Assembly: GCF_003008575.1 (NCBI RefSeq)
Contig: NZ_CP027667.1
Location: forward strand, 1,492,501-1,556,500
DNA length: 64,000 bases
Origin: Melaminivora suipulveris
GTDB taxonomy: Bacteria; Pseudomonadota; Gammaproteobacteria; Burkholderiales; Burkholderiaceae_C
Direction of reading: 5' to 3'
In this document: positions 12,769 through 48,706 of the stretch, piece after piece
Position numbering within the stretch: position 1 is the first letter of the stretch
Layout of the letters: each line of letters begins with the position of its first letter
Program-made: the position numbers and the translations under genes
Notes under the pieces: generated by a model
What the model saw: only the letters and a program-made list of their open reading frames with translations
Told to the model about the DNA's origin: nothing
Database searches by the model: none

Positions 12769-13494
12769 CTAATGGTCCTGGTGCTGCTGCCGAAATGCCC
12801 GCGCCTGGCTGAAGTGGCCGTTGCCGAGGAAGGGCAGCGGCGGCTTGGTGGCCGACAGCGGCGAGGGGTGGTTGGACACCAGCACCAGGTGGCCGCGGCC
12901 CGTAGGGATCAGCGCCCGCTTGGCCTGGGCGTGCGCGCCCCAGAGCATGAAGACCACCGGCCGCGCTCCCTGCGCCACGTGGCGGATGACGGCGTCGGTC
13001 AGTTGCTCCCAGCCCTTGCCGGCGTGGCTGGCCGCCTGGCCTTCTTCCACGGTGAGCGTGGTGTTGAGCAGCAGCACGCCGCCCTCGGCCCAGCGCACCA
13101 GGCTGCCGCCGGGATCGGGAAAGGGCGGCGGGGGCGTGCCCAGATCGCGCTGCATCTCCTTGAAGATGTTGCGCAGGGACGGCGGCACGCGCACGCCGGG
13201 ACGCACGGAAAACGCCAGCCCCTCGCCCTGGCCGCGGCCGTGGTACGGGTCCTGGCCCAGGATGACCACGCGCACGGCCTCCGGCGGCGTGAGCTGCAGC
13301 GCGCGCAGCGGCTGGGGCGGAAAGATCACCGCGCCCGCCTCCAGCCGCGCGCGCAGGAAGGCCAGCAGCGCCTGGCCGCGCGCGCTGGCGAAGAAGTCGT
13401 CGACCAGCGGCTGCCAGCCGGGCGCGACCGGCCAATCCAGCGGATTGGCGCTGCGCAGTTGCGCGGAATCGGCGGGCGGGGATGGATTTTTCAT
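12769..13494 (-). CDS. ung: Uracil-DNA glycosylase, family 1
   Basis: Removes uracil from DNA at the start of base-excision repair. It is 241 aa. The catalytic water-activating motif ILGQDPYHGRGQGEGLAFSV lies near residue 78, FMLWGAHAQAKRALI near 185 and the DNA-intercalation loop HPSPLSA near 210, all diagnostic for family 1. The start codon and its flank (ATGAAAAAT) coincide with the end of dispersed repeat copy C. Confidence 0.96.
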   Translation of the reverse strand: MKNPSPPADSAQLRSANPLDWPVAPGWQPLVDDFFASARGQALLAFLRARLEAGAVIFPPQPLRALQLTPPEAVRVVILGQDPYHGRGQGEGLAFSVRPGVRVPPSLRNIFKEMQRDLGTPPPPFPDPGGSLVRWAEGGVLLLNTTLTVEEGQAASHAGKGWEQLTDAVIRHVAQGARPVVFMLWGAHAQAKRALIPTGRGHLVLVSNHPSPLSATKPPLPFLGNGHFSQARAFRQQHQDH

Positions 13495-13553
13495 GAAAAC
13501 AGGCTTCAGTCGGCGTGGATCAACCGCTATGTGCTATTTATTCGATAGCAAAC
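13490..13553 (-). repeat. ATAGC-type dispersed repeat, copy C
   Basis: On the minus strand it reads GCTATCGAATAAATAGC, then GGTTGATCCACGCCGACTGA and GCCTGTTTTCATGAAAA. It supplies the final residues (LLSNK) and TAG of the diguanylate cyclase and the start codon of ung. Confidence 0.8.
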
Positions 13554-35052: not shown

Positions 35053-36726
35053 TCAGGCCGCTGGCGGCGCCGCCACGTGCTCGCGCCGCTGCACCACCAC
35101 GAAACGGTCGGCCACGAAGGCCAGCGTGGTGTAGCTGGCGTTCGCCGCGCGGTTGCCGCCCGTGGCGTGGTAGTCGGAGAACGCCGACGACTGGTTCACG
35201 TACACGCCCTGCGTCAGGTTGATGGACAGCGCGACGCGCGCGCGGCGCGACAGCTGCACGCTGCTCTCGATGAATGCCCTGTCGGTGGAATACACGCCCA
35301 GGGTCAGCGCGCCGTGCTCGCGCAGCGTGGCGTCGGCGGTCTGCAGCGCACCTTGCGCGCCCTCGGTGGCAACCAGGAAGGACACCGGTCCGAAGCACTC
35401 GCGCGCATAGGTGGCCCAGTCGCCCTGCGTCAGCGCGACGATGGTCGGCGTGTGCATGCGCGCCTGCGGGTAGTCGGGGTTGTCCACGGCGCGCGAGGCC
35501 AGCAGCACGCGGCCCTTGGTGGCCGCGTCCTGGGTGCGCTGCACCGTCTGCGGCGCGCTGATGGCGCCCAGCACCGCGCCGACCACGCGCGGGTCGGACA
35601 GCAGCTTGTCCACGGCCGCCGCCAGGTCCTGCCCGACCTGCTCGAAGCTCTTGTGGCCCTCGTCGGTGGCGATGCCGTCCTTGGGCACCAGGATGTTTTG
35701 CGTGGTGGTGCACATCTGGCCGCTGTACAGCGACAGCGTGAACGCCAGGTTGCGCAGCATGGCGGCGTACTGGTCGGTGGATTCGACGATCACCGTGTTC
35801 ACGCCCGCCATCTCGGCGTACAGGCGTGCCTGGCGGGCGTTGTCGGCAAGCCAGCGGCCGAACTCGTTGCTGCCCGTGAAATCGATGCTGGCCACGGCCG
35901 GGTGGCGCGCCAGCTGCTGGGTGTGCGCCGGGTCCTCGCTCAGCGCCAGCGTCACCAGGTTGGCGTCCAACCCCTGCTCGGCCAGCACCTCGCGCAGGAT
36001 GTTCACCGAGATCGCCGCCGGCAGCACGGCGTTGGGGTGCGGCTTGACGATGACCGGGTTGCCCGTGGCCAGCGCGGCGAACAGACCGGGATAGGTGTTC
36101 CAGGTCGGGAAGGTGGCGCAGCCGATGACCAGCGCCACGCCGCGCCCGACGACCTCGAAGTGCTTTTGCATGACCAGCGGCGGGTTCTTGCCCTGGGGCT
36201 TGTTCCACAGCGCCTCGCCGGGCACGTCGGCCATGGCTTTCCAGGCGTAGGCAATCGCCTCCAGCGCGCGGTCCTGCGCGTGCGGCCCGCCGGCCTGGAA
36301 GGCCATCATGGGCCCCTGGCCGGTGGTCAGCATCACCGCGTGGGCGATCTCGTGGCTGCGCTTGTGGATGCGCGTGAGCGCCTCCAGCAGCACGCCGGTG
36401 CGGCCGCGTGCGCCCAGCGCCTGCCACTGCGGCTCGGCGGCCTGCGCGGCGGCGACCAGCGCCTCGGGCGCGCACTCGGGGTAGCGCACGCCGATCTGCG
36501 CGCCATAGGGCGAGTCCTCGGTCGCCACGCGGCCCACCTCGCCCGGCTGGGCGAGCGGAAAGTCGCGTCCCAGCAGCGCCCGCACCGCCGCCTGGCCGTC
36601 CGCCTGCGCCGTCTCGCCATAGACCTTGGGCGAGGCCACTTCGGGGAAGGGCGACCAGTAGCCACGCGTGGCGCTGGCTTGCAGCGCGCCGTCCAGCAGC
36701 GCGCGGTGGGTGTCGAACAGGCTCAT
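35053..36726 (-). CDS. paaN: Phenylacetate-degradation aldehyde dehydrogenase PaaN
   Basis: NAD(P)-dependent aldehyde dehydrogenase of 557 aa of the PaaN type, acting on the semialdehyde formed after ring opening of phenylacetyl-CoA. ALDH features: VKPHPNAVLPAAISV, FTGSNEFGRWL (NAD loop), MAGVNTVIVES and the catalytic Cys in YSGQMCTTTQNILVP. Compared with E. coli PaaZ (about 680 aa) it lacks the C-terminal enoyl-CoA-hydratase-type ring-opening domain. The ATG at 36726 has AGGAGACC upstream. It is divergent from paaG over a 165-base regulatory region. Confidence 0.92.
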   Translation of the reverse strand: MSLFDTHRALLDGALQASATRGYWSPFPEVASPKVYGETAQADGQAAVRALLGRDFPLAQPGEVGRVATEDSPYGAQIGVRYPECAPEALVAAAQAAEPQWQALGARGRTGVLLEALTRIHKRSHEIAHAVMLTTGQGPMMAFQAGGPHAQDRALEAIAYAWKAMADVPGEALWNKPQGKNPPLVMQKHFEVVGRGVALVIGCATFPTWNTYPGLFAALATGNPVIVKPHPNAVLPAAISVNILREVLAEQGLDANLVTLALSEDPAHTQQLARHPAVASIDFTGSNEFGRWLADNARQARLYAEMAGVNTVIVESTDQYAAMLRNLAFTLSLYSGQMCTTTQNILVPKDGIATDEGHKSFEQVGQDLAAAVDKLLSDPRVVGAVLGAISAPQTVQRTQDAATKGRVLLASRAVDNPDYPQARMHTPTIVALTQGDWATYARECFGPVSFLVATEGAQGALQTADATLREHGALTLGVYSTDRAFIESSVQLSRRARVALSINLTQGVYVNQSSAFSDYHATGGNRAANASYTTLAFVADRFVVVQRREHVAAPPAA

Positions 36727-36806: not shown

Positions 36807-36825
36807 TGACCGACCGATCGGTCAA
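36806..36825. promoter_or_regulatory. Probable PaaR (TetR-family) operator 1
   Basis: TTGACCGACCGATCGGTCAA: 8-bp inverted arms, with a perfect 12-bp GACCGATCGGTC core. It matches the second site at 39639-39654 (GACCGACC then TCGGTC) and is placed right after a TATTAT box between divergent paaN and paaG. A TetR-family gene (paaR) is in the same cluster. Confidence 0.75.
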
Positions 36826-36891: not shown

Positions 36892-37719
36892 ATGCCCGAG
36901 ACCACGCCTTCGTCCGCCGCCGATCCGCTGGTGCTGGCCGCCCGCAGCGGCCCGGTGCTGACGCTGACGTTGAACCGCCCGGCCGCCCTCAACAGCTTCA
37001 CCGGCGCGCTGCACGGCGAGCTGCTGGCCGCGCTGGAAGCCGCCGCCGCCGACAGCGCCGTGCGCTGCGTGGTGCTGACCGGCGCCGGCCGTGCGTTCTG
37101 CGCCGGGCAGGACCTGGCCGACCCGGCCGTCGCCCCCGACCCCGCGCCCGGTGCCGCGCCGCGCGACCTGAGCGAAGTCATCGACCAGCACTACCGCCCC
37201 CTGTGCCTGCGCCTGCGCAGCATGCCGGTGCCGGTGATCGCCGCCGTCAACGGCGTGGCCGCCGGCGCCGGCGCCAGCATTGCGCTTTCCTGCGACATCG
37301 TGGTGGCGGCGCGCTCGGCCAGCTTCATCCAGGCGTTTGCCAAGATCGGCCTGGTACCCGACAGCGGGGGCACCTGGCTGCTCCCGCGCCTGGTGGGCCG
37401 CGCGCGCGCGCTGGGGCTGGCGCTGCTGGGCGACAAGCTGGGCGCCGAGGAAGCGCAGCGCATCGGCCTGATCTGGCAGTGCGTGGACGACGCGCAATTG
37501 CAGCCCACCGTGCAGGCATTGGCCGAGCGGCTGGCGGCCATGCCGGTCAAGGCGCTGGCGGGCATCCGCGCCGCGCTGGACGACGCGTGGCTGCTGGACT
37601 GGCCGCAGGCGCTGGCGCGCGAGGCCCAGCAGCAGCGCGAACTGGGTTTCGCGCACGACTACCGCGAGGGCGTGCAGGCCTTTGGCGAAAAGCGTGCTCC
37701 AAGCTTCAAGGACCGTTGA
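36892..37719 (+). CDS. paaG: Epoxyphenylacetyl-CoA isomerase (enoyl-CoA hydratase family)
   Basis: Crotonase-fold enzyme of 275 aa that isomerises ring-1,2-epoxyphenylacetyl-CoA to oxepin-CoA. Visible: LTLNRPAALNSFTGALH (residues 23-39), GAGRAFCAGQDLAD (oxyanion loop), AAVNGVAAGAGASIALSCDIV and FAKIGLVPDSGGTWLLPRLVG with the catalytic Asp that distinguishes PaaG from PaaF. The ATG at 36892 fits the family; upstream in-frame codons run through the leader hairpin. It is first of the plus-strand paa genes. The C-terminal SFKDR and stop touch repeat copy H. Confidence 0.9.
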   Translation: MPETTPSSAADPLVLAARSGPVLTLTLNRPAALNSFTGALHGELLAALEAAAADSAVRCVVLTGAGRAFCAGQDLADPAVAPDPAPGAAPRDLSEVIDQHYRPLCLRLRSMPVPVIAAVNGVAAGAGASIALSCDIVVAARSASFIQAFAKIGLVPDSGGTWLLPRLVGRARALGLALLGDKLGAEEAQRIGLIWQCVDDAQLQPTVQALAERLAAMPVKALAGIRAALDDAWLLDWPQALAREAQQQRELGFAHDYREGVQAFGEKRAPSFKDR

Positions 37720-37768: not shown

Positions 37769-38221
37769 ATGCCTGAAGCATCCATGACCGCCCAGCAGAC
37801 CGCCGACCATGTACGCGTCGGCATGCTGGCCAACGACCGCGCCACGCAAAGCCTGGGCATGCAGATCACTGCCATGGGCCCCGGCACGGCGACGCTGACC
37901 ATGCCCGTGCGCGCCGACATGCTCAACGGCCACGCCACCTGCCACGGCGGCTTCATCACCGCGCTGGCCGACTCGGCCTTTGCCTTCGCCTGCAACTCGG
38001 GCAACGAGCTGACGGTGGCCTCGGGCCTGGCGATCGACTTCGTGGCACCGGCGCGCGAAGGCGACGTGCTCACGGCCAGCGCCCACGAGGTTTCGCACGC
38101 CGGGCGCACCGGCGTGTACGACGCCAGCGTGCGCAACCAGCGCGGCGAGCTGGTGGCAGTGTTTCGCGGCCGCTCCTACCGCATGAAGGGCCGCCCGGCC
38201 GTGCCCCCGGCCGGCGCCTGA
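37769..38221 (+). CDS. paaI: Hydroxyphenylacetyl-CoA thioesterase PaaI
   Basis: Hot-dog-fold thioesterase of 150 aa that hydrolyses dead-end hydroxylated phenylacetyl-CoA products and frees CoA. The motif DMLNGHATCHGGFITALADSA (catalytic Asp/His/Gly region) is at about 51-70, followed by VASGLAIDFVAPAREGDVLTA and GRTGVYDASVRNQRGELVA. The start is ATG 37769 or the in-frame ATG at 37784 (MTAQQT). It lies between paaG and paaK with short gaps. Confidence 0.92.
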   Translation: MPEASMTAQQTADHVRVGMLANDRATQSLGMQITAMGPGTATLTMPVRADMLNGHATCHGGFITALADSAFAFACNSGNELTVASGLAIDFVAPAREGDVLTASAHEVSHAGRTGVYDASVRNQRGELVAVFRGRSYRMKGRPAVPPAGA

Positions 38222-38268: not shown

Positions 38269-39582
38269 ATGTCGCCCACCCGCCCCGCCCCCGGCGAACT
38301 TGAACCGATAGAGACCGCCAGCCGCGACGAAATCCAGGCGCTGCAGCTGCAGCGCCTGCGCTGGTCGCTGCAGCACGCCTACGACAACGTGCCGCACTAC
38401 CGGCGCGCCTTCGACGCCCGCGGCGTGCATCCGGGCGACCTGAAAACCCTGGCCGACCTGGCGAAGTTTCCCTTCACCACCAAGGCCGACCTGCGCGAGA
38501 ACTATCCGTTCGGCATGTTCGCCGTGCCGCGCCACCAGATCATGCGCATCCACGCCTCGTCGGGCACCACCGGCAAGCCCACCGTGGTCGGCTACACCGC
38601 GCGCGACATCGACACCTGGGCCGACCTGGCGGCGCGCTCGATCCGCGCCGCCGGCGGGCGGCCGGGCGACATGGTGCACATCGCCTACGGCTACGGCCTG
38701 TTCACCGGCGGCCTGGGCGCGCACTACGGCGCCGAGCGCGCCGGCTGCACCGTGGTGCCCATGTCCGGCGGGCAGACGGAAAAACAGGTGCAACTGATCC
38801 AGGACTTCAAGCCCGACCTGATCATGGTGACGCCGTCGTACATGCAGGTCATCGTCGAGGAGTTCGCCCGCCAGGGGCTGGATGCGCGCGAGAGCTCTTT
38901 GAGGGTCGGCATCTTCGGCGCCGAGCCCTGGACGGAGGCCATGCGCCGCGAGATCGAACACAGCGCCGGCATCAAGGCTGTGGACATCTACGGCCTGTCC
39001 GAAGTCATGGGCCCGGGCGTGGCCAGCGAGTGCGTGGAAACGCAGGACGGCCCCACCATCTGGGAAGACCACTTCTACCCCGAGATCATCGACCCGCTGA
39101 CGGGCGAGGTGCTGCCCGATGGCGAAGAGGGCGAGCTGGTCTTCACCACCCTGAGCAAGGAAGGCCTGCCGGTGATCCGCTACCGCACGCGCGACCTGAC
39201 GCGCCTGTTGCCGCCCACGGCGCGGTCGTTCAGGCGCATGGGCAAGATCGTCGGGCGCTCGGACGACATGCTCATCATTCGCGGCGTGAACATGTTCCCC
39301 ACGCAGATCGAGGAGATCGTGCTGGCGCACGAGCAGCTGTCGGGCCAGTACCAGATCGTCGTCTCGCGCGACGGCAACCTGGACCGGGTGGAGGTGCGCT
39401 GCGAGCTGCACCCCCACTGCCAGGCCGCGCCCGACGAGGTGCAGCAGATCAGCGGCTGGATCCAGCACCGCATCAAGACCCTGGTGGGCATCAGCACGCG
39501 CGTGAGCGTGCTGCCGCAGGACTCCATCGAACGCACGCTGGTGGGCAAGGCCCGGCGCGTAATCGACCAGCGCCCGCGCTGA
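38269..39582 (+). CDS. paaK: Phenylacetate-CoA ligase
   Basis: AMP-forming ligase of 437 aa that activates phenylacetate with ATP and CoA, the entry step of the pathway. ANL-family motifs: RIHASSGTTGKPTVVGYT (P-loop, about 98-114), YGYGLFTGGLGAHYGAE, DIYGLSEVMGPGVASEC, YRTRDLTRLLPP and GRSDDMLIIRGVNMFPTQIEE. A GGAGA lies 9 bases before the ATG. An intrinsic terminator follows the stop by 10 bases, so this appears to end the first paa transcription unit (paaG-paaI-paaK). Confidence 0.96.
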   Translation: MSPTRPAPGELEPIETASRDEIQALQLQRLRWSLQHAYDNVPHYRRAFDARGVHPGDLKTLADLAKFPFTTKADLRENYPFGMFAVPRHQIMRIHASSGTTGKPTVVGYTARDIDTWADLAARSIRAAGGRPGDMVHIAYGYGLFTGGLGAHYGAERAGCTVVPMSGGQTEKQVQLIQDFKPDLIMVTPSYMQVIVEEFARQGLDARESSLRVGIFGAEPWTEAMRREIEHSAGIKAVDIYGLSEVMGPGVASECVETQDGPTIWEDHFYPEIIDPLTGEVLPDGEEGELVFTTLSKEGLPVIRYRTRDLTRLLPPTARSFRRMGKIVGRSDDMLIIRGVNMFPTQIEEIVLAHEQLSGQYQIVVSRDGNLDRVEVRCELHPHCQAAPDEVQQISGWIQHRIKTLVGISTRVSVLPQDSIERTLVGKARRVIDQRPR

Positions 39583-39591
39583 CGCGGCTGA

Positions 39592-39625
39592 AACTGCGCC
39601 AGGCAGGGGCCGGCGCAGTTTTTTA
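39592..39625 (+). terminator. Intrinsic terminator after paaK
   Basis: AACTGCGCC pairs perfectly with GGCGCAGTT around an 11-base loop and is followed by TTTTTAT. It is the clearest terminator in the window and separates paaGIK from the downstream oxygenase genes. Confidence 0.85.
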
Positions 39626-39638
39626 TCCCGTATTCTTC

Positions 39639-39654
39639 GACCGACCAGTCGGTC
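39639..39654. promoter_or_regulatory. Probable PaaR (TetR-family) operator 2
   Basis: GACCGACCAGTCGGTC: 7-bp inverted arms. It matches operator 1 at 14 of 16 positions and also directly follows a TATTCT box (39631-39636), 49 bases before the diiron oxygenase start. No good -35 is seen upstream, but the shared layout suggests a second regulated promoter. Confidence 0.75.
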
Positions 39655-39702: not shown

Positions 39703-40725
39703 ATGAACAAGGAAAAGCTCGCCCAGAGCATGGAGTTCCCGCCGGCCACGCCGCAGCCCAACGTCTACCCCCTGTCGTGGCACCAGCACACGAAAAAGCT
39801 GGAGGAGATCTGGGATGCGTCGCAGCGCGAGTACTGGGATGTGAAAAAGCTGCCCTGGGACACCTTCAAGGTCGAAAAGTACACCTGGGAGCAGCGCGAG
39901 GCGATTGCCTACTGGTGGACGCTGTTGTCGGTGTTCGACGCCTCGGCGCCGCCGGTGTTCGCCGCCGCCATGATCAAGACCTACGAGGCGCACGAGGAGG
40001 ACGCCGTGCGCCGGTGCTTCTTCAGCGTCACGCGCGACGAGCAGAACCACGAACAGATGTGCGGCATGGCCATCACCCGGTTCCTGGAGCACCCGGACCC
40101 GCTGACCTACCAGCCCAGGACCGAGCTGGGTCGCCGCCTGCAAAAGAACGCCCAATGGCTGTACTACAACGGCGGGCGCTACTGGAGCGGCTACAAGACG
40201 GCCGTGCCCAAGTACAGCCTGGCGGTGCTGTTCTCGTCCTTCCTGATGGGCGAGATCGCGGCCGCGACCATCTTCCACCAGATGGCGGCGGGCTGCACCG
40301 AGCCGGTGTTCAAGGAGGCGTTTCGCAACATCGGCAAGGACGAGGGCCGCCACATGGGCATCTGCCTGGCGCTGATGGAGCGCGACTATCCCAAGCTGCC
40401 GCCCGAGGACCGCAGCATCATCACCAAGCAGATCCGCGCCGGCTACCTGTTCCTGTCGGCCGTGCTGTTCGAGCCGCCGATGGATTTCTGGGACCTGCCC
40501 GATGACTTCATCGACAACCAGCGCGCGGGCGAGGCCGTGGCCCGCTCGGCCGGCTTTGCCATCCCCGAGTACGAGGCCAAGAAGGCCAACTGGCGCGGCG
40601 CCATCCTGAACCTGAAGGGCGCGCTGGACAAATACGGCATCCCCTTCCCGGCGATTCCCGAAGTGGGCATCACCGGCGAGGAAGTGTCCGACGTGGACCT
40701 GGACGACATCATCCCCGTGTTCTGA
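39703..40725 (+). CDS. R2-type diiron oxygenase of unknown substrate, in paa operon
   Basis: A 340 aa all-helical ferritin/ribonucleotide-reductase-R2-like protein. Metal ligands can be placed as two carboxylate-ExxH pairs: Asp79 (VFDASAP), Glu113-x-x-His116 (DEQNHEQ), Glu184 (MGEIAAA) and Glu214-x-x-His217 (DEGRHMG), with R2-like spacing (34 and 30). It is Trp/Tyr rich near the site (YWWTLL, WLYYNGGRYW). It is not PaaA or PaaC, which are encoded downstream. The next gene is a dedicated reductase, 10 bases away. An aromatic hydroxylase or N-oxygenase role is inferred; the substrate is unknown. The ribosome site GAGAGGAG precedes the ATG. Confidence 0.82.
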   Translation: MNKEKLAQSMEFPPATPQPNVYPLSWHQHTKKLEEIWDASQREYWDVKKLPWDTFKVEKYTWEQREAIAYWWTLLSVFDASAPPVFAAAMIKTYEAHEEDAVRRCFFSVTRDEQNHEQMCGMAITRFLEHPDPLTYQPRTELGRRLQKNAQWLYYNGGRYWSGYKTAVPKYSLAVLFSSFLMGEIAAATIFHQMAAGCTEPVFKEAFRNIGKDEGRHMGICLALMERDYPKLPPEDRSIITKQIRAGYLFLSAVLFEPPMDFWDLPDDFIDNQRAGEAVARSAGFAIPEYEAKKANWRGAILNLKGALDKYGIPFPAIPEVGITGEEVSDVDLDDIIPVF

Positions 40726-40735
40726 CAGGGCCGCG

Positions 40736-41770
40736 ATGACCGCCAACATCAAGCTGTACCCCTCGGGCCAGAGCGTCGCCTGCGATAGCGGCCAGACCGT
40801 GCTGGAGGCGCTGGAGCGCGCCGGCTACGCCCTGCCCAACAACTGCCGCGCCGGCGCCTGCGGCGAATGCAAGGTGCGCGTGCGCGCCGGCGAGTTCGAC
40901 CAGGGCTTCGTGCTGGACATGGCCTTGTTGCAGGACGAGCGCGCCGCCGGGTACGGCCTGATGTGCATGGCCAAGCCGCTGTCGCCCGAGCTCGAGATCG
41001 AGTGGGGCACGGCGGACGCCAAACCCAAACTGTTCCCGCCACGCGAGGCGCAGTACGCCGTGCTGGTGGACCGCATCGCGCGCACGCCGCGCATCACCGA
41101 GTTCGTGCTGCGCCCGCTGGGCGAGCCGATGCGCTTCTGGCCGGGCCAGTACGTGCTGCTGGGCGATCCGTCGCGCGGCATTCCCCAGCGCAGCTACTCG
41201 CTGGCGAACGCGCCGCGCCCGGACGGCGAATTCAAGCTGCAGGTCACGCGCGTCGATGCCGATGCGCCGGACACCCCGGCCGGGCGCACCAGCCGCTGGC
41301 TGCACGGCCAGGTGCAGCCCGGCGACCAGCTGCGCTATTCCGGCCCGCACGGCACCTTCATCGGCGATCCGTCGGTGGACACCCCCGTGCTGTGCCTGGC
41401 GGCCGGCTCGGGCCTGGCGCCCATCCTGTCGCTGACCGAGGCCGCGCTGCGCCGCGGCTACGCGCGGCCCGTGACGCTGATGTTCTCGGCGCGCGAGGCG
41501 GCCGACCTGTACGACGTCGGCCTGATGCGCTACTGGCAGGCGCGCCACCCCAACTTCCGCTACCTGCCCACGCTCACCCGCGGCCGGCAGGACGGCGTGG
41601 CGCAGGGCCGCATCCCGCAAACCCTGGGCCAGCATTTCCCCGACCTGAGCGGCTACAGCGTGTTCGCCGCCGGCGCCACCGGCTTCGTCGATGATTGCGT
41701 GGCCGCAGCGCGCGCGCTGGGCGCCGCCCTGCCGCAGATCCACACCGAGGGCTTTTTCGCGCAGGCCTGA
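40736..41770 (+). CDS. 2Fe-2S/FAD oxidoreductase partner of the diiron oxygenase
   Basis: NAD(P)H-dependent electron-transfer protein of 344 aa with an N-terminal plant-type ferredoxin (CRAGACGEC and the fourth Cys in LMCMAKP, residues about 38-82), FAD domain (RSYSLANAP near 152) and NAD domain (CLAAGSGLAPILSLTE near 222). The domain order is that of phenol and toluene monooxygenase reductases, and the reverse of PaaE (ferredoxin C-terminal), which is encoded separately downstream. It starts 10 bases after the diiron oxygenase and very likely feeds it electrons. Confidence 0.9.
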   Translation: MTANIKLYPSGQSVACDSGQTVLEALERAGYALPNNCRAGACGECKVRVRAGEFDQGFVLDMALLQDERAAGYGLMCMAKPLSPELEIEWGTADAKPKLFPPREAQYAVLVDRIARTPRITEFVLRPLGEPMRFWPGQYVLLGDPSRGIPQRSYSLANAPRPDGEFKLQVTRVDADAPDTPAGRTSRWLHGQVQPGDQLRYSGPHGTFIGDPSVDTPVLCLAAGSGLAPILSLTEAALRRGYARPVTLMFSAREAADLYDVGLMRYWQARHPNFRYLPTLTRGRQDGVAQGRIPQTLGQHFPDLSGYSVFAAGATGFVDDCVAAARALGAALPQIHTEGFFAQA

Positions 41771-41830: not shown

Positions 41831-42844
41831 ATGTACACCCAGGCCATGGATGTGATGGGCAAGGAAGCCCCCAGCGCAGCGCCGGCGCTGCGCAGCGCGC
41901 AGGAGCTGCAGCTGCAGCAGCGCTTCGACGCGCGCATCGACGCCGGCGAGTTCATCGAGGCGCGCGACTGGATGCCCGAGAACTACCGCAAGACGCTGGT
42001 GCGCCAGATCAGCCAGCACGCGCATTCGGAGATCGTCGGCATGCTGCCCGAGGGCAACTGGATCACGCGCGCGCCCACGCTCAAGAGGAAGGCCATCCTG
42101 CTGGCCAAGGTGCAGGACGAAGGCGGGCACGGCCTGTACCTGTATTCCGCCGCAGAAACGCTGGGCACCTCGCGCGATGAGATGCTGGCCGCGCTGCACT
42201 CGGGCCGCGCCAAGTACAGCTCGATCTTCAACTACCCGACGCTCACCTGGGCCGACGTGGGCGTGATCGGCTGGCTGGTCGACGGCGCGGCCATCATGAA
42301 CCAGGTGCCGATCTGCCGCTGCTCCTACGGCCCGTATGCGCGCGCCATGGTGCGCATCTGCCGCGAGGAGAGCTTCCACCAGCGCCAGGGCTACGAGGCA
42401 CTCCTGACCATGATGCAACGCGGCACGGACGCCCAGCGCGCCATGGTGCAGGACGCGGTGAACCGCTGGTGGTGGCCGTCGCTGATGATGTTCGGCCCGC
42501 CGGACGAGCTCTCGCCCAACACCGCGCAATCCATGCGCTGGGGCATCAAGCGCATCTCCAACGACGAGCTGCGCCAGAAGTTCGTCGACGCCGCCGTGCA
42601 GCAAGCCCAGGTGCTGGGCGTGCAGCTGCCCGACCCGGATCTGAAGTGGAACGAGGAGCGCGGCCAGCACGACTTCGGCGCCATCGACTGGGACGAGTTC
42701 TGGCGCGTGGTGGGCGGCGACGGCCCGTGCAACCGCGAACGCCTGGCCGCGCGCGTGAAGGCCTGGGACGATGGCGCGTGGGTGCGCGAGGCGGCCCTGG
42801 CGCACGCCGCCAAGCACGCCGAGCCGCAGCGCGCCGTGGCCTGA
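41831..42844 (+). CDS. paaA: Phenylacetyl-CoA 1,2-epoxidase subunit A
   Basis: Catalytic diiron subunit (337 aa) that epoxidises the ring of phenylacetyl-CoA. Ligand motifs: [22 protein letters not shown] helix ([19 protein letters not shown]) and [15 protein letters not shown], with the conserved [18 protein letters not shown] before them. Translation begins at an ATG with AAAGGAA upstream, 60 bases after the reductase. paaB follows after a 89-base gap filled by repeat copy I. Confidence 0.96.
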
Positions 42845-42908
42845 ATTTCAAGCCAAAAAGGCCGTCAGCCGGCGTGCATCAAGCGCCTTTAGCTATCAAT
42901 TTGGATGC
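42845..42908 (-). repeat. ATAGC-type dispersed repeat, copy I
   Basis: On the minus strand it reads AAATTGATAGCTAAAGGCGC, then TTGATGCACGCCGGCTGACG and GCCTTTTTGGCTTGAAA. A nearly full-length copy, sitting inside the paaABCDE operon right after the paaA stop. Confidence 0.85.
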
Positions 42909-42933
42909 AACCTCACCGTTGCGAACACACACC

Positions 42934-43242
42934 ATGAACACCACATCCGATACCGCAACCACCGCCGAATGGCCCCTGTGGGAAGTCTTCGTGCGCAGCA
43001 AGGCCGGCCTGGACCACAAGCACTGCGGCAGCCTGCACGCCGCCGACGCGAAAATGGCCATCCAGATGGCGCGCGACGTCTACACGCGCCGCCAGGAGGG
43101 CACCAGCATCTGGGTCGTGCCCTCGGCGCAGATCACGGCCAGCGAGCCGGCCGACAAGGACGCCTACTTCGATCCGGCCGCGGACAAGGTGTACCGCCAC
43201 CCCACTTTCTACGCCCTGCCCAAGGCCGTGGACCACATGTAA
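42934..43242 (+). CDS. paaB: Phenylacetyl-CoA 1,2-epoxidase subunit B
   Basis: Small structural subunit (102 aa) of the multicomponent epoxidase. The PaaB pattern is clear: WPLWEVFVRSKAGLDHKHCG at residues 13-32, HAADAKMAIQMARDVYTRR and GTSIWVVPSAQI, then the tail KVYRHPTFYALPKAVDHM. A 13-base gap leads to paaC. Confidence 0.96.
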   Translation: MNTTSDTATTAEWPLWEVFVRSKAGLDHKHCGSLHAADAKMAIQMARDVYTRRQEGTSIWVVPSAQITASEPADKDAYFDPAADKVYRHPTFYALPKAVDHM

Positions 43243-43254
43243 GGGGCGCGCCAC

Positions 43255-44025
43255 ATGCAAAGCATCCGCATCGGCCGCACGCCGCAATTGCAGTACCTGC
43301 TGCGCCTCTCGGACACCTGCCTGGTGCTGGGCCAGCGCATCAGCGAGTGGTGCGGCCACGCGCCCGTCCTGGAGGAAGACATCGCCCTGTCGAACATGGC
43401 GCTGGACCTGATCGGCCAGGCGCGTGCCCTGCTCACGCGCGCCGGCGAGCTGGACGGGCGCGGGCATGACGAGGACCAGCTGGCCTTTTTGCGGGACGAA
43501 GGCGACTACCTGAACGTGACCCTGGCCGAGCTGCCGCGCGGCGATTTCGCCCTGACCTGCCTGCGCAACGCCATGCTGGCGACGCTGCTCAAATTGCTCT
43601 GGCAGCGCCTGCAGGACTCCAGCGACCAGGAGCTCGCCGCCATCGCCGGCAAGGCCGTCAAGGAGGCGCGCTACCACCAGCAGCACGCGGCCGACTGGGT
43701 GGTGCGCCTGGGCGACGGCACGGATGAGTCGCGCCGGCGCATGCAGGACGCACTGGCCCAGCTGTGGCCCTACAGTGCCGAGCTGTTCGACGGCGATGCC
43801 GTGGACGAGGCCGCGCACGCCAGCGGCCTGGGGCCGCGCTGGGCCGATCTGCAAGGCGAGTGGCAGGGCGAGATGCAGGCCATCCTCGCCGCGGCCGACC
43901 TGAGCGCGCCGCAGACCACTGCCTTTCGCAGCACCGGCAAGCGCGGCGTACACAGCGAACACCTGGGGCCCATGCTGGCCGAGATGCAGTACCTGCAGCG
44001 CTCCTTTCCCGGAGGCGTGTGGTGA
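43255..44025 (+). CDS. paaC: Phenylacetyl-CoA 1,2-epoxidase subunit C
   Basis: Ferritin-like structural partner of PaaA (256 aa). Characteristic segments: LRLSDTCLVLGQRISEWCGHAP, EEDIALSNMALDLIGQARALL, FLRDEGDYLNVTLAELPRGDF and ARYHQQHAADWVVRLGDGT. Its stop overlaps the paaD start. Confidence 0.96.
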   Translation: MQSIRIGRTPQLQYLLRLSDTCLVLGQRISEWCGHAPVLEEDIALSNMALDLIGQARALLTRAGELDGRGHDEDQLAFLRDEGDYLNVTLAELPRGDFALTCLRNAMLATLLKLLWQRLQDSSDQELAAIAGKAVKEARYHQQHAADWVVRLGDGTDESRRRMQDALAQLWPYSAELFDGDAVDEAAHASGLGPRWADLQGEWQGEMQAILAAADLSAPQTTAFRSTGKRGVHSEHLGPMLAEMQYLQRSFPGGVW

Positions 44026-44552
44026 CACCAGCGCCCATGCCGGCCGAGGAGCGCGTGCAGCAGGCCTGGGCCGTGCTGCACCAGGTGCCCGACCCGGAAG
44101 TGCCGGCGATCTCGCTGTGCGATCTGGGCATCGTGCGCGACGTGCGCGAGGCTGACGGCGGCGTGCTGGACATCGTGCTCACCCCCACCTATTCCGGCTG
44201 CCCGGCCACCGAGGTCATCGAGGCCGACGTGCGCGCCGCCCTGGATGCTGCCGGCCTGGGGCCGGTGCAGGTGCTGCTGCAGCGCGCCCCCGCCTGGACC
44301 ACCGACTGGATCAGCGAAGCCGGACGCGAGAAGCTGCGCGCCTACGGCATCGCCCCGCCCGGCCCCGTCGCCGCAGATGCTGCCCGGCCCCTGGTCTTCA
44401 TGCCGCGGCGCAAGCCCGAGCCGGGCGTTGCCTGCCCGCGCTGCGCCAGCACGCACACCGAGCGCCTGTCGGCTTTCGGCTCCACGGCCTGCAAGGCGCT
44501 GTGGCGCTGCCTGGCCTGCCGCGAGCCGTTCGAGCATTTCAAGCCGATCTGA
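44022..44552 (+). CDS. paaD: PaaD, Fe-S/metal assembly factor of the epoxidase
   Basis: A 176 aa protein with an N-terminal MIP18/DUF59 domain (AWAVLHQVPDPEVPAISLCDLGIV, LTPTYSGCPATEVIEADV) and a C-terminal zinc-ribbon-like CPRCAS...CLACREPF, thought to mature the epoxidase metal site. The start is taken as GTG at 44022, overlapping the paaC stop, because GGAGG lies 6-10 bases upstream; ATG at 44037 is the alternative. Confidence 0.93.
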   Translation: MTPAPMPAEERVQQAWAVLHQVPDPEVPAISLCDLGIVRDVREADGGVLDIVLTPTYSGCPATEVIEADVRAALDAAGLGPVQVLLQRAPAWTTDWISEAGREKLRAYGIAPPGPVAADAARPLVFMPRRKPEPGVACPRCASTHTERLSAFGSTACKALWRCLACREPFEHFKPI

Positions 44553-44589: not shown

Positions 44590-45678
44590 ATGAGCGTCAC
44601 CTTCCACCCCCTGCGCGTGCGCGCCATCGAGCCCGACACGGCCGAGGCCATGATCGTCACCTTCGAAGTGCCGCCAGCGCTGCGCGAGGTCTTCGGCTTC
44701 ATCCAGGGCCAGTACCTGACGCTGCGCACGCGCGTCGCTGGCCAGGAACTGCGCCGCTCATACTCCATCTGCGCCGGCGTCGATGACGAGCACCTGCGCG
44801 TGGGCGTGCGCCGCGTGAACGCCGGCGTGTTCTCCAACTGGCTGCACACCGAGCTGAAGCCCGGCGACTCGATCGAGGTCATGGCGCCGCAGGGGCGCTT
44901 CTACGTGCCTTTGGCGCCCGACGCGCGGCGCCACTACCTGGCCGTGGCCGGCGGCAGCGGCATCACGCCCATCCTGTCGATCGCCAAGACGGTGCTGGCG
45001 CGCGAGCCGGGCAGCCGCGTCACGCTGCTGTACGGCAACCGCAACCTGCAGTCCACCATGTTCAAGGAGGAGCTGGAGGACCTGAAGAACCGCTACCTGG
45101 AGCGCCTGGCGCTGCACCACGTGTTCTCCGCCGAGCAGACCGACGCGGGCCTGAACATGGGCTTGATGAACCGCGACAAGGTGAGCGAATTCCTGCGCAC
45201 GCTGGTGCCGGCCGCCAGCATCGACGAGGCCTTCATCTGCGGCCCCTTCCAGATGAACGACGAGGCCGAAGCCGCGCTGCTGGCCGCCGGCGTGCCCGAG
45301 GAGCGCATCCACATCGAGCGCTTCGGCATCGCCCTGTCGCCTGCCGGCCAGGCCGGCGCGGTCGAGCACCGCGAGGCGCAGCCTGGCGACGCGGAGCAGT
45401 CGCGCATCACCATCGTGCGCGATGGCCTGTCGCGCGAATTCAACTACGCCAGCAGCCAGCCCAGCCTCCTGGACGCGGCCTCTGCCGCCGGGCTGGAGGT
45501 GCCGTTTTCCTGCACCTCGGGCGTCTGTGGCACCTGCCGCGCCAAGTGCCTGGAGGGCGAGGTGCGCATGGAGCGCAACTTCGCGCTGGACAAGGCGGAA
45601 GTGGCGGCCGGCTTCGTGCTGACCTGCCAGTGCCGCCCGCTGACGCCGCGCGTCACGCTGTCGTTCGACGAGCGCTGA
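44590..45678 (+). CDS. paaE: Phenylacetyl-CoA 1,2-epoxidase reductase subunit
   Basis: NADPH-dependent reductase (362 aa) that passes electrons to PaaA. FAD motif LRRSYSICAG (about 54-63), NAD motif YLAVAGGSGITPILS (about 115-130), CGPFQMND, and a C-terminal plant-type 2Fe-2S domain with CTSGVCGTCRAKC and LTCQCRP. The ferredoxin-last order is the PaaE type. It lies 37 bases after paaD. Confidence 0.96.
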   Translation: MSVTFHPLRVRAIEPDTAEAMIVTFEVPPALREVFGFIQGQYLTLRTRVAGQELRRSYSICAGVDDEHLRVGVRRVNAGVFSNWLHTELKPGDSIEVMAPQGRFYVPLAPDARRHYLAVAGGSGITPILSIAKTVLAREPGSRVTLLYGNRNLQSTMFKEELEDLKNRYLERLALHHVFSAEQTDAGLNMGLMNRDKVSEFLRTLVPAASIDEAFICGPFQMNDEAEAALLAAGVPEERIHIERFGIALSPAGQAGAVEHREAQPGDAEQSRITIVRDGLSREFNYASSQPSLLDAASAAGLEVPFSCTSGVCGTCRAKCLEGEVRMERNFALDKAEVAAGFVLTCQCRPLTPRVTLSFDER

Positions 45679-45696: not shown

Positions 45697-46317
45697 ATGG
45701 CACGCGGACGCTCAGCCGGCTACGAAGACCAGCGCGAACTGATCCTGGAGCGCGCGGCGCACCTGTTCGCCAAGCAGGGCTACACGGCCGCCTCGATGAA
45801 CGAGGTGGCCGAGGCCTGCGGGCTGTCCAAGCCGGCGCTGTACCACTACTTTCGCGACAAATACGACCTGCTGGTGCACATCGCCGAAGGCCACGTGAGC
45901 CGCCTGCAGCTGCTGGTGGCCGAGGTGGAGAGCCTGGGCCTGCCGCCCGAGCAGCGCCTGCGCACGCTGATCCAGCGCTTCGTGCTGGAGTACGCGCGCG
46001 CCAAGGACGCGCACCGCGTGCTGACCGAGGACGTGAAGTTCCTCACGGACGAGGACCGCGCCCGCATCCTGGGCAGCGAGCGCGCCGTGGTGGCGCACTT
46101 CAGCGGCGCCATCGGCGAGCACTGGCCGCAGGTGGCGGGCGCCCGGCTGGCCGCACCCACCGCCATGTTGCTGTTCGGCATGATCAACTGGATGTTCACC
46201 TGGTTCCGGCCCGAAGGCAGCCTGACCTACGAGGACCTTGCGCCCATGGTGGCCGATCTGTTCTTCGGCGGCGTGCCGGCGATGCGCCTGCCCCAGGCCC
46301 CGCAGGACCCCGCATGA
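45697..46317 (+). CDS. paaR: TetR-family regulator PaaR
   Basis: One-component repressor of 206 aa. The N-terminal helix-turn-helix spans about 11-57 (RAAHLFAKQGYTAASMNEVA, GLSKPALYHYFRDKYDLL). The C-terminal half is a TetR ligand domain with FGMINWMFTWFRPEG. Its place directly after paaE, plus two TetR-like palindromes upstream of the paa units, supports control of the pathway by phenylacetyl-CoA. Start follows paaE by 18 bases. Confidence 0.88.
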   Translation: MARGRSAGYEDQRELILERAAHLFAKQGYTAASMNEVAEACGLSKPALYHYFRDKYDLLVHIAEGHVSRLQLLVAEVESLGLPPEQRLRTLIQRFVLEYARAKDAHRVLTEDVKFLTDEDRARILGSERAVVAHFSGAIGEHWPQVAGARLAAPTAMLLFGMINWMFTWFRPEGSLTYEDLAPMVADLFFGGVPAMRLPQAPQDPA

Positions 46318-46447
46318 GTGCGACCACAGGCTATTTTCGACCGCCGGGTCAGGGCTTTGCCGGGGGCGCAAACCGCCCGCCATGCCCCACCATTTCGCCC
46401 CGTTCGCATTGATTTTTCTCAACGACCATTCCAACCGGAGACAAACC

Positions 46448-47599
46448 ATGAAGAAAACCTGTATCGCCCTCGCCCTGGCTGCCGCCGGCCTGCTGGCCGG
46501 CACCACCGCGCTGGCCGACATCAACGTCGGCGTCACCGTCTCGGCCACCGGCCCGGCGGCGTCGCTGGGCATTCCCGAGAAGAACACCATCGCGCTGATG
46601 CCGCGCACCATTGGCGGCGAGAAGATCAACTACATCGTGCTGGACGACGCCTCGGACACCACCAACGGCGTGTCCAACACGCGCAAGCTGATCAGCGAGA
46701 ACAAGGTCGACATCATGCTGGGCTCCAGCACCACACCGGTGTCGCTGGCGATGATCGACGTGGTCTCCGAAGCGAAGACGCCGATGATCTCCATGGCCGC
46801 TTCGGCACGCATCGTCGAGCCCGTCGATGACAAGAAGAAGTGGGTCTTCAAGACGCCGCAAAACGACATCATGATGTCGCTGGCGATTGCCGAGCACATG
46901 GCCGCCGCCGGCGTCAAGACCGTGGGCTTCATCGGCTTTTCCGACGCCTACGGCGAGGGCTGGTTCCAGGAGTTCACCAAGGCCGCCGATCTGAAGAAAC
47001 TCAAGATCGTCGCCAACGAGCGCTACAACCGCACCGACACCTCGGTGACCGGCCAGACGCTCAAGATCATGGCCGCCAAGCCCGACGCGGTGCTGGTCGC
47101 CGGCTCGGGCACGCCGGCCGCGCTGCCGCAAAAGACGCTCAAGGAGCGCGGCTACGCCGGCAAGTACTACCAGACGCACGGCGTGGCCAACGCCGACTTC
47201 CTGCGCGTGGGCGGCAAGGACGTCGAAGGCACGCTGCTGCCTGCCGGCCCGGTGCTGGTGGCCGATCAGCTGCCGGCCAGTCACCCGGTGCGCAAGTCGG
47301 CCATGGCTTATGTGAAGGCCTACGAGGACGCGCACGGCAAGGGCAGCGTCTCCACCTTCGGCGCGCACGGCTGGGACGCCGGCGTGCTGATGGCCGCCGC
47401 GGTGCCCGAGGCTTTGAAGAAGGCCAAGCCCGGCACGCCGGAGTTCCGCGCCGCGCTGCGCGACGCGCTGGAGCAGCTCAAGGAAGTGCCCGGCGCGCAC
47501 GGCATCTTCACCATGTCGCCCACCGACCACCTGGGCCTGGACCAGCGCGCACGCGTGATGGTCAAGATCGAGAACGGCGCCTGGAAGTACCAGCCCTGA
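46448..47599 (+). CDS. ABC transporter substrate-binding protein, branched-chain type
   Basis: Periplasmic binding protein of 383 aa in the Leu/Ile/Val/aromatic family. Signal peptide 1-23 (CIALALAAAGLLAGTTALA). The type I binding fold has ADINVGVTVSATGPAASLGIPE at the start of the mature protein and GFIGFSDAYGEGWFQEFTKA in the middle. It begins the transporter genes 130 bases after paaR. Uptake of phenylacetate or a related aromatic acid is inferred from position only. Confidence 0.9.
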   Translation: MKKTCIALALAAAGLLAGTTALADINVGVTVSATGPAASLGIPEKNTIALMPRTIGGEKINYIVLDDASDTTNGVSNTRKLISENKVDIMLGSSTTPVSLAMIDVVSEAKTPMISMAASARIVEPVDDKKKWVFKTPQNDIMMSLAIAEHMAAAGVKTVGFIGFSDAYGEGWFQEFTKAADLKKLKIVANERYNRTDTSVTGQTLKIMAAKPDAVLVAGSGTPAALPQKTLKERGYAGKYYQTHGVANADFLRVGGKDVEGTLLPAGPVLVADQLPASHPVRKSAMAYVKAYEDAHGKGSVSTFGAHGWDAGVLMAAAVPEALKKAKPGTPEFRAALRDALEQLKEVPGAHGIFTMSPTDHLGLDQRARVMVKIENGAWKYQP

Positions 47600-47677
47600 T
47601 GCCCGGCTGAGAAGCGGCCGGCCGGCTGCGTGCGCGGCCGGCCCGTCCGCGTGTGGTCCATCGACAGAAAGACAAAC

Positions 47678-48706
47678 ATGGATTTACAGATCGCCCTGCT
47701 GCTCGCGCAGGACGGGCTGGTCAACGGGGCCATCTACGGCCTGATGGCGCTGGCATTGGTGCTGGTGTTCTCCGTGACCCGCGTGATCTTCATCCCGCAA
47801 GGCGAGTTCGTCGCCTTCGGCGCGCTGTCGCTGGCGCTCATGCAGATGGGCCGCGTGCCGCCCACGCTGTGGCTGCTGGCGGGCCTGTCATTGGCGGTGC
47901 TGCTCATCGAGGCCTGGCGCGCCAGCCGCGGCACGGCCGTGAACTGGTTCGCCACGCTCGGCTGGTGCGTCGTCCTGCCGGGGCTGGCGGCGGCCATGGT
48001 GCTGCTGTGGCGGCCGCAACAGCTGTGGGCGCAAAGCCTGATCACGCTGCTGCTGATCGCGCCGCTGGGGCCACTGCTTTACCGCCTGGTCTACCGCCCG
48101 CTGGCGGGCGCGACCACGCTGATGCTGCTGATCGTCTCGGTGGCGCTGCACCTGGTCATGGTCGGCGCGGGCCTGCTGTTCTTCGGCGCCGAGGGCTCGC
48201 GCACGCCGGCGTTCTCGGATGCGCAATTCCAGTGGGGCGAGATGAGCGTCTCCGGCCAGTTCCTGGTGGTGCTGGGCACCACGGCGCTTTTGGTGCTGGT
48301 GCTGTTCGTGTTCTTCGAGCGCACCATGGTCGGCAAGGCGCTGCGCGCCGTGGCCGTGAACCGTGTGGGCGCGCGCCTGATGGGCATACCCACCGACATG
48401 TCGGGCGACGTGAGCTTTGCCCTGGCGGCCGTCATCGGCGGCGTCTCGGGGCTGCTGATCGGGCCCATCACCACGATTTATTACGACACCGGCTTTCTGA
48501 TCGGCCTGAAGGGTTTCGTCGCCGCCATCGTCGGCGGCCTGGCCAGCTACCCCGTGGCGCTGGCCGGCGCGCTGCTGGTCGGGCAGCTGGAATCGTTCTC
48601 GTCGTTCTGGGCCAGCGCGTACAAGGAAGTACTGGTCTTCACCCTGATCATCCCGGTGCTGTGGTGGCGCTCGCGCAATAGCCGCCACGTGGAGGACGAA
48701 GAATGA
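47678..48706 (+). CDS. Branched-chain-type ABC transporter permease (LivH-like)
   Basis: Inner membrane permease of 342 aa with eight or more hydrophobic segments. Family motifs: QDGLVNGAIYGLMALALVLVF, RVIFIPQGEFVAFGA, TMVGKALRAVAVNRVGARLMGI and FVAAIVGGLASYP. It carries a longer loop between the early helices than most LivH proteins (WRASRGTAVNW). Its stop overlaps the next start (ATGA). Confidence 0.92.
   Translation: MDLQIALLLAQDGLVNGAIYGLMALALVLVFSVTRVIFIPQGEFVAFGALSLALMQMGRVPPTLWLLAGLSLAVLLIEAWRASRGTAVNWFATLGWCVVLPGLAAAMVLLWRPQQLWAQSLITLLLIAPLGPLLYRLVYRPLAGATTLMLLIVSVALHLVMVGAGLLFFGAEGSRTPAFSDAQFQWGEMSVSGQFLVVLGTTALLVLVLFVFFERTMVGKALRAVAVNRVGARLMGIPTDMSGDVSFALAAVIGGVSGLLIGPITTIYYDTGFLIGLKGFVAAIVGGLASYPVALAGALLVGQLESFSSFWASAYKEVLVFTLIIPVLWWRSRNSRHVEDEE

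Follow-up and report, generated by a model that had tools for sequence, protein, structure and literature searches.

The 64,000-nucleotide window analysed here, from Melaminivora suipulveris, carries within a phenylacetate (paa) operon two adjacent genes that code for a stand-alone R2-type diiron protein and a dedicated ferredoxin/flavin reductase. Our analyses suggested, with a probability that we put at roughly 0.7, that this pair is a two-component ring oxygenase (epoxidase) of phenylacetyl-CoA, unrelated to the canonical epoxidase PaaABCDE, and that it is a low-oxygen isozyme in many of its owners. The evidence consists of co-occurrence, gene order, predicted fold, predicted ligands and upstream boxes.

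Coordinates are positions in the window, and the window's own open reading frames (ORFs) were used for the gene calls. The diiron gene (39703..40725, + strand) encodes 340 amino acids with six predicted metal ligands, Asp79, Glu113, His116, Glu184, Glu214 and His217. The reductase gene (40736..41770, + strand), which begins 10 bases past it, encodes 344 amino acids in the domain order Fer2 - FAD - NAD, and the pair sits between paaK and paaABCDE. These results confirmed what an earlier note on this DNA had described, namely an R2-type diiron protein with the pattern Asp79, ExxH113-116, Glu184 and ExxH214-217, followed 10 bases on by a ferredoxin-first 2Fe-2S/FAD reductase, both preceding paaABCDE behind a PaaR-like operator; the operator corresponds to the palindrome ACCGACCAGTCGGT, and the flanking paa genes were found as well. 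The note knew of no assigned role for such a pair in phenylacetate catabolism, and likewise no title or abstract start listed by our searches of Creative Commons-licensed PubMed Central (PMC) papers mentions one.

A search for related loci over 84,980 species genomes gave 287 encoding places, and the best 80 of the 287 were analysed. Diiron and reductase genes are adjacent in all 80 loci; owners of the pair include Comamonas-like bacteria, Azospirillum, Magnetospirillum, Azoarcus, Marinospirillum, Arcobacter-like Campylobacterota and Bacteriovoracia, and the main subfamily is about 80% identical across phyla. Canonical paaA lies within the locus stretch in 11 of 80 cases and paaK in 21 (identity of at least 40%). 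Among 369 sampled genomes of the window's class, the pair was present in the window's own genome only, plus one 19-bit match elsewhere, and no match to the diiron protein was found in the phage records searched. Neighbour lists are rough except where checked by NCBIfam or Pfam, because genes of the loci were called crudely as longest ORFs, and the 1058 control upstream regions used below are equally rough. One locus (L046), on a contig labelled Stygiobacter, has gene order and PaaN/PaaG scores like those of Magnetospirillum-type loci and is probably a binning error.

The earlier note had suggested tracing the spread of the pair with paa genes, and this co-occurrence proved to extend to genomes that lack PaaA. 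PaaA (TIGR02156) scored over cut-off in 54 of the 80 pair genomes (25/42 and 29/38); among the remaining 26, 20 (13 + 7) had no PaaA match at E<=0.001 and six had a weak or partial one (G009, G025, G026, G027, G610 and G638). A PaaG-like protein was detected with the NCBIfam model at E<=1e-50 in all 26, over cut-off in 17 of them (12/17 and 5/9), and it was present in all 20 genomes without a PaaA match, over cut-off in 14. PaaN was searched in the 26 genomes, in the further genome G103 and in 14 controls; it exceeded the cut-off in 18 of the 26, in 15 of the 20 without a PaaA match and, counting G103, in 19 of 27, against 0/14 control genomes. PaaC was over cut-off in none of 17 pair genomes without over-cut-off PaaA, with three weak matches. 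Of 42 pair genomes searched for fused PaaZ, 13 exceeded the cut-off of the model.

Gene order pointed the same way. In the Campylobacterota locus L037 a Liv transporter, an enoyl-CoA hydratase, the diiron protein and the reductase are followed by a PaaX-like protein, a protein without Pfam or NCBIfam match, a KefF/KefG-like oxidoreductase and PaaK, and then by PaaJ, PaaI, PaaH, PaaG and PaaF. The KefF/KefG-like oxidoreductase and its match-less neighbour (13245-14375, - strand), which lie between PaaX and PaaK, have relatives in other Campylobacterota loci. The L037 enoyl-CoA hydratase was tried as an alternative oxepin-CoA hydrolase and left unassigned at 179 bits against a cut-off of 300. 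Nine more clusters were fetched, of which seven come from genomes in which PaaA had no match and the other two from the Azospirillum isolates that carry a PaaA-like protein; their genes were named by BLASTP to annotated references (for PaaG, the L037 protein). All nine hold PaaN, PaaG, PaaJ and PaaK, with PaaI in eight, PaaH in seven and PaaF in four; PaaABCDE was detected by BLASTP in 0/9, two of the clusters (L092, L098) stopping at a contig edge, and the diiron gene falls within the fetched stretch in three (L093, L094, L095). In G103, on one contig of 2.378 Mb, PaaN, PaaF, PaaG, PaaH, PaaI, PaaJ, PaaK and PaaX adjoin the pair, and no PaaA was found in this genome. PaaN, PaaG and PaaJ are over cut-off there, PaaK (620 of 646 bits) and PaaX (241 of 265 bits) are slightly under, and PaaF, PaaH and PaaI were named by BLASTP. 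Across 200 sampled Campylobacterota, the pair and PaaG occurred in the same two genomes (G001, G103) and PaaA in none.

Since the pair stands with much of the paa pathway in genomes without PaaABCDE, it probably performs the same step as PaaABCDE. The earlier note had expected a second oxygenation: a second oxygenase with its own reductase is indeed what was found, but the PaaABCDE-free genomes do not favour a different reaction, and the proposed pre-oxidation of a side chain becomes less likely on the same grounds. A reaction other than that of PaaABCDE is, in general, less likely and is conceivable above all for the second subfamily described below. These genomes also bear on the idea that the pair is no epoxidase at all but an accessory of PaaABCDE, with the task of clearing or mending the toxic epoxide or of shielding the complex. 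The paaABCDE neighbourhood in the window and in its relatives would suit such a helper, as would the ability of PaaABCE itself to deoxygenate its epoxide, described in an excerpt of PMC4498308; however, an accessory would have nothing to assist in G103 and in the 20 of 80 pair genomes without a PaaA match, so that we consider this role very unlikely.

Signals upstream of the diiron gene suggested why two enzymes might be kept. We scanned the 250 bp before the diiron gene in 77 loci, allowing at most one mismatch, with 1058 other genes from these loci as controls. FNR-type boxes preceded the diiron gene in 34 of 77 cases (20 perfect) vs 21 of 1058 other genes (8 perfect), and six control palindromes of the same spacing were present in 0-2 of the 77 regions. 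Outside Azospirillum, 20 of 61 loci have such a box, and in 13.2 of these 20 (best hexamer, ties split) a -10-like hexamer lies exactly 22 nt behind it; shuffled flanks gave a mean of 1.9 and 0/5000 reached 13.2. This 22-nt distance from box to -10 is the geometry of a class II FNR promoter. In aligned upstream regions of 14 Azospirillum species the FNR-type box TTGATCTGGATCAAT is the longest invariant block, and no clear -10 was seen in them at the class II distance. Three Marinospirillum loci show one FNR-type box (at most one mismatch) before the pair and another before paaA (L022 12286, L028 12290, L050 12282), a layout that would fit oxygen-driven isozyme exchange; the related Nitrincola locus has the box before the pair only.

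Substrate-type signals were enriched too. A PaaR-type box was present ahead of the diiron gene in 18 of 77 loci vs 4 of 1058 other genes; the window has one at this place, as do four of the seven Comamonas-like loci (L002-L007, L011). Of the 80 loci, 29 have a PaaX-like gene no more than 900 bp away from the pair; three of these genes, when scanned, exceeded the cut-off of the PaaX model TIGR02277, and the L037 and L087 copies were slightly under. Within 300 bp upstream of the diiron gene, the half-site TGATAC occurs in 22 of 30 PaaX-adjacent loci (L037, L044, L049, L059 and L072 are among the loci with the site) vs 15 of the 47 remaining ones, against a background of 0.07 per 300 bp, and it is a candidate PaaX operator. 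All five Campylobacterota loci have TGATACAATT in common upstream of the diiron gene. Judged by their sequence, the PaaR- and FNR-type boxes would be bound by the respective regulators, and the FNR-type boxes would give a reason for keeping two enzymes.

Several observations weigh against the proposed role. First, 54 of the 80 pair genomes also keep PaaA, as does the window, and neither the window nor the Comamonas-like loci show an FNR box before the pair at up to two mismatches. Second, nearly all PaaA-less genomes bear titles of metagenome bins or of single-cell-type assemblies. Two of the 26 are isolate drafts, Azospirillum isscasi and A. soli, and in both of these isolates, which have no canonical PaaA, a 272-aa PaaA_PaaC-family protein lies beside the pair (L054 7588-8403, - strand; L064 7579-8397, - strand; 84.7 bits to PF05138 for the L054 protein), so that they are not clean PaaA-less cases. 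Genome G610 shows 60 residues of PaaA within an open frame of 78 codons, a piece that looks cut by a short contig or by assembly, and this genome therefore probably has PaaA. In the Campylobacterota sample, G001 had been chosen as the centre for having the pair, which leaves G103 as the sole independent hit, one in 199. Third, the remainder of the pathway is incomplete in places. Four Bacteriovoracia/Oligoflexia genomes have a weak PaaG (173-222 bits) and no PaaN, and three of these four hold a weak PaaA-like protein; fused PaaZ is over cut-off in two of the three genomes of this group that were searched. In three loci of the same group (L082, L083, L084) a single PaaA/PaaC-like protein with 107-120 bits to TIGR02156 adjoins a PaaG-like crotonase, possibly another pathway variant. 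PaaN is absent from G619, G629, G637 and G645, in which PaaZ was not searched, and no oxepin-CoA hydrolase was identified in the PaaN-type genomes. A Nonomuraea homologue, which belongs to the second subfamily, has no reductase beside it among the 10 ORFs scanned of 28 of at least 230 aa. Finally, hints from the literature on Paa and oxygen are mixed. For micro-oxic Burkholderia cenocepacia H111, a table excerpt without its column headings gives two Paa oxygenase subunits as -34.8 and -10.4 in one column and as 'nd' and 2.9 in the other (PMC3759415). For micro-oxic Bradyrhizobium, the excerpted rows for canonical Paa carry positive fold values (PMC6515984), which argues that PaaABCDE is not generally a high-oxygen enzyme.

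That PaaA is retained in so many pair genomes also favours another possibility, namely that the substrate is some other aromatic acid or acyl-CoA, such as a hydroxylated or indolic arylacetyl-CoA, and that the pair only feeds the product into the paa lower pathway. A second subfamily in Variovorax plasmids, whose diiron proteins are 53% identical and have the reductase adjoining, points in this direction: it lies beside an indolepyruvate ferredoxin oxidoreductase, a dehydratase and a diverged ligase, so that more than one substrate may be in use across the family. One such cluster includes PaaN at 624.7 bits (cut-off 578.75), a thiolase, hydratases, a Liv transporter, the indolepyruvate ferredoxin oxidoreductase and a ligase that resembles PaaK (283 of 646). 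Altogether 834 proteins match the branch of the second subfamily. The Variovorax plasmid loci L100 and L101 both encode a CoA-ester pathway that includes indolepyruvate ferredoxin oxidoreductase, the diiron protein of the second subfamily and either a PaaK-like ligase or an AMP-binding protein, with PaaN among the listed genes of L101 and not of L100; their pathway is a candidate aerobic route for another arylacetate. For the main subfamily, however, a different substrate seems rather unlikely to us: by their scores, the ligase, isomerase, semialdehyde dehydrogenase and regulator of the PaaA-less genomes equal or approach the phenylacetate versions, no other candidate for ring epoxidation was seen there, and the missing oxepin-CoA hydrolase needs no oxygenase. 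On a wider proposal, the pair would be the first member of a second class of aromatic acyl-CoA epoxidases, unrelated to the known one and built on the R2 fold. One subfamily would be a phenylacetyl-CoA epoxidase induced by FNR-type regulators at falling oxygen, which would let the cell exchange PaaABCDE for a simpler enzyme that suits micro-oxia, and the other would serve a different arylacetyl-CoA. This proposal has an even chance in our estimate.

The diiron protein itself showed no clear identity to a characterised enzyme. A sequence search of the PDB gave no relative (best E 0.17), and Pfam and NCBIfam gave no family over cut-off. Its predicted structure has an R2 fold with R2lox (R2-like ligand-binding oxidase) and ribonucleotide reductase (RNR) R2 as best matches, and PaaA and BoxB structures are not among the 50 matches listed. 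In sequence, the PaaA model TIGR02156 did not match it up to E 1, BLASTP found no similarity to the window's PaaA, and PF00268 (RNR R2) did not match the window protein, with two relatives below cut-off. The radical tyrosine of R2 lies seven residues past the first ExxH glutamate; this position (Glu+7) is occupied here by Cys120, which is invariant in 64 sequences. Some RNR R2 classes likewise have no radical tyrosine.

The AurF family PF11583 gave 27.7 bits for the window protein against a gathering cut-off of 29.6, and many homologues carry a precomputed PF11583 label. An AurF-like N-oxygenase acting on an amino-aromatic compound, a function which the earlier note had also considered, is nevertheless highly improbable: five other copies score 15.9-24.1 bits, all under the cut-off, the best structural matches are R2lox and RNR R2, the surrounding genes belong to phenylacetate catabolism, and annotation of the neighbours, which covered part of the loci, showed no amine pathway. 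Just as little probability attaches to a relative of ferritin, rubrerythrin or RNR R2 that handles redox balance or scavenges oxygen and lies in the operon by chance. The R2 fold and the names rubrerythrin or ferritin-like given to some homologues by their sources would agree with it, but the reductase partner in all 80 loci, the co-occurrence with paa genes, the PaaR-, PaaX- and FNR-type signals and the invariant Cys120 all speak against it. The nearest solved structure to the reductase is 5ogx, a cytochrome P450 reductase (E 1.9e-47, residues 10-340) that we take to be GcoB, and the BoxA model TIGR03224 gave 22.3 bits on the reductase vs a cut-off of 459.2.

On the preferred reading, that of a second phenylacetyl-CoA epoxidase, we infer which substrate and product are involved, how electrons travel and when the genes are expressed; the two enzymes might also differ in their affinity for O2. 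Electrons from NAD(P)H would pass through the FAD and the 2Fe-2S cluster of the reductase to the R2-fold diiron protein, as modelled on BoxAB; the diiron protein would activate O2 and place one oxygen atom on the ring of phenylacetyl-CoA, most likely as the 1,2-epoxide, which PaaG would isomerise to oxepin-CoA. Genomes without PaaABCDE would rely on the pair alone, and genomes with both would retain the pair as an isozyme that responds, in many lineages, to FNR-type (low oxygen) and PaaR/PaaX-type (substrate) regulators.

In the window, further paa genes surround the pair. On its left side lie paaN, a PacL-type semialdehyde dehydrogenase (35053..36726, - strand; TIGR02288 836.6 bits, cut-off 578.75), and a second PaaR-type palindrome, ACCGACCGATCGGT (36809..36822), before the epoxide isomerase gene paaG (36892..37719, + strand; TIGR02280 326.2 bits, slightly below the cut-off of 345.15). 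A paaI-like thioesterase gene (37769..38221, + strand) was assigned by a chain of similarity: it shares 54.6% over 108 aa with the copy in L087, itself 60% identical to that of L037, and the latter exceeds the cut-off of TIGR02286. After the phenylacetate-CoA ligase gene paaK (38269..39582, + strand; TIGR02155 721.1 bits, cut-off 646.3) comes a terminator-like hairpin with a U-run (39590..39622, + strand; z -3.0, equal stability being reached by 2 of 200 shuffles), and then the perfect PaaR-type palindrome ACCGACCAGTCGGT (39640..39653), which ends 49 bp ahead of the diiron ATG. Given this succession, transcription plausibly starts anew at the pair and continues into paaABCDE; in a consensus scan, no promoter or terminator was listed for the stretch between paaK and the diiron gene, not even this hairpin. 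Downstream follow paaABCD, i.e., the canonical phenylacetyl-CoA epoxidase subunits and PaaD (41831..44552, + strand; NCBIfam matches over cut-off), the canonical reductase gene paaE with its ferredoxin domain last (44590..45678, + strand; TIGR02160 446 bits, cut-off 420.8), and a TetR-family regulator, probably PaaR (45697..46317, + strand; PF00440 and PF17932, the name being given from its position). By the look of its ORFs, a branched-chain-amino-acid-type ABC transporter lies 3' of the paa genes (46400-51400, + strand); a transporter of this kind flanks the pair in many loci and may therefore import phenylacetate or related acids.

PaaA and PaaC have been proposed as genomic markers of the aerobic phenylacetate pathway (excerpt of PMC13186573). 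Should the pair be a second epoxidase, pathways in Campylobacterota and in Magnetospirillum-, Telmatospirillum- and Rhodospirillum-type genomes would escape this marker. Such an enzyme would also mean that an R2 fold has been recruited to aromatic-ring epoxidation and that ring oxygenation can be sustained at low oxygen by an enzyme swap.

Known systems share some features with the pair and differ in others. Class I RNR R2 has the ligand pattern Asp-ExxH-Glu-ExxH, which the diiron protein shares on the same fold, but the latter has Cys120 for the radical tyrosine and sits among catabolic genes. R2lox also has the R2 fold, with 12% identity in the structural alignment and Glu69 where the diiron protein has Asp79, and we know of no dedicated reductase of this kind for it. 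Val72 and Tyr162 of R2lox cross-link. When mapped by ligand offset and not by superposition, these two positions hold Ala82 and Ser179 in the diiron protein (R2lox residues Glu69, Val72 and Tyr162 from an excerpt of PMC10867098). The GcoB-type reductase 5ogx is the best solved relative of the reductase; its partner is a P450, and that of the pair's reductase is the diiron protein. With PaaABCDE the pair shares the slot between PaaK and PaaG, the company of the lower pathway, the combination of a diiron protein with a ferredoxin/FAD reductase and, as far as can be inferred, a CoA-ester substrate. In contrast, it has one diiron protein in place of PaaA, PaaB and PaaC, no PaaD, a ferredoxin domain that comes first where that of PaaE comes last, and no detectable sequence similarity to PaaA, whose ligands include Glu42 and Asp126 (excerpt of PMC4498308) where the pair has Asp first and Glu fourth. 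BoxB, the diiron protein of the benzoyl-CoA epoxidase, has the ligands Glu120, Glu150, His153, Asp211, Glu240 and His243 (excerpt of PMC5489048), and this order Glu - ExxH - Asp - ExxH differs from Asp79 ... Glu184 in the pair; BoxA has two [4Fe-4S] clusters (excerpt of PMC4498308) vs one 2Fe-2S domain in the pair's reductase. Like the pair, with its predicted substrate, BoxAB nevertheless joins a single diiron protein to a separate reductase on an aromatic CoA ester, and by this analogy it is the best functional analogue of the pair.

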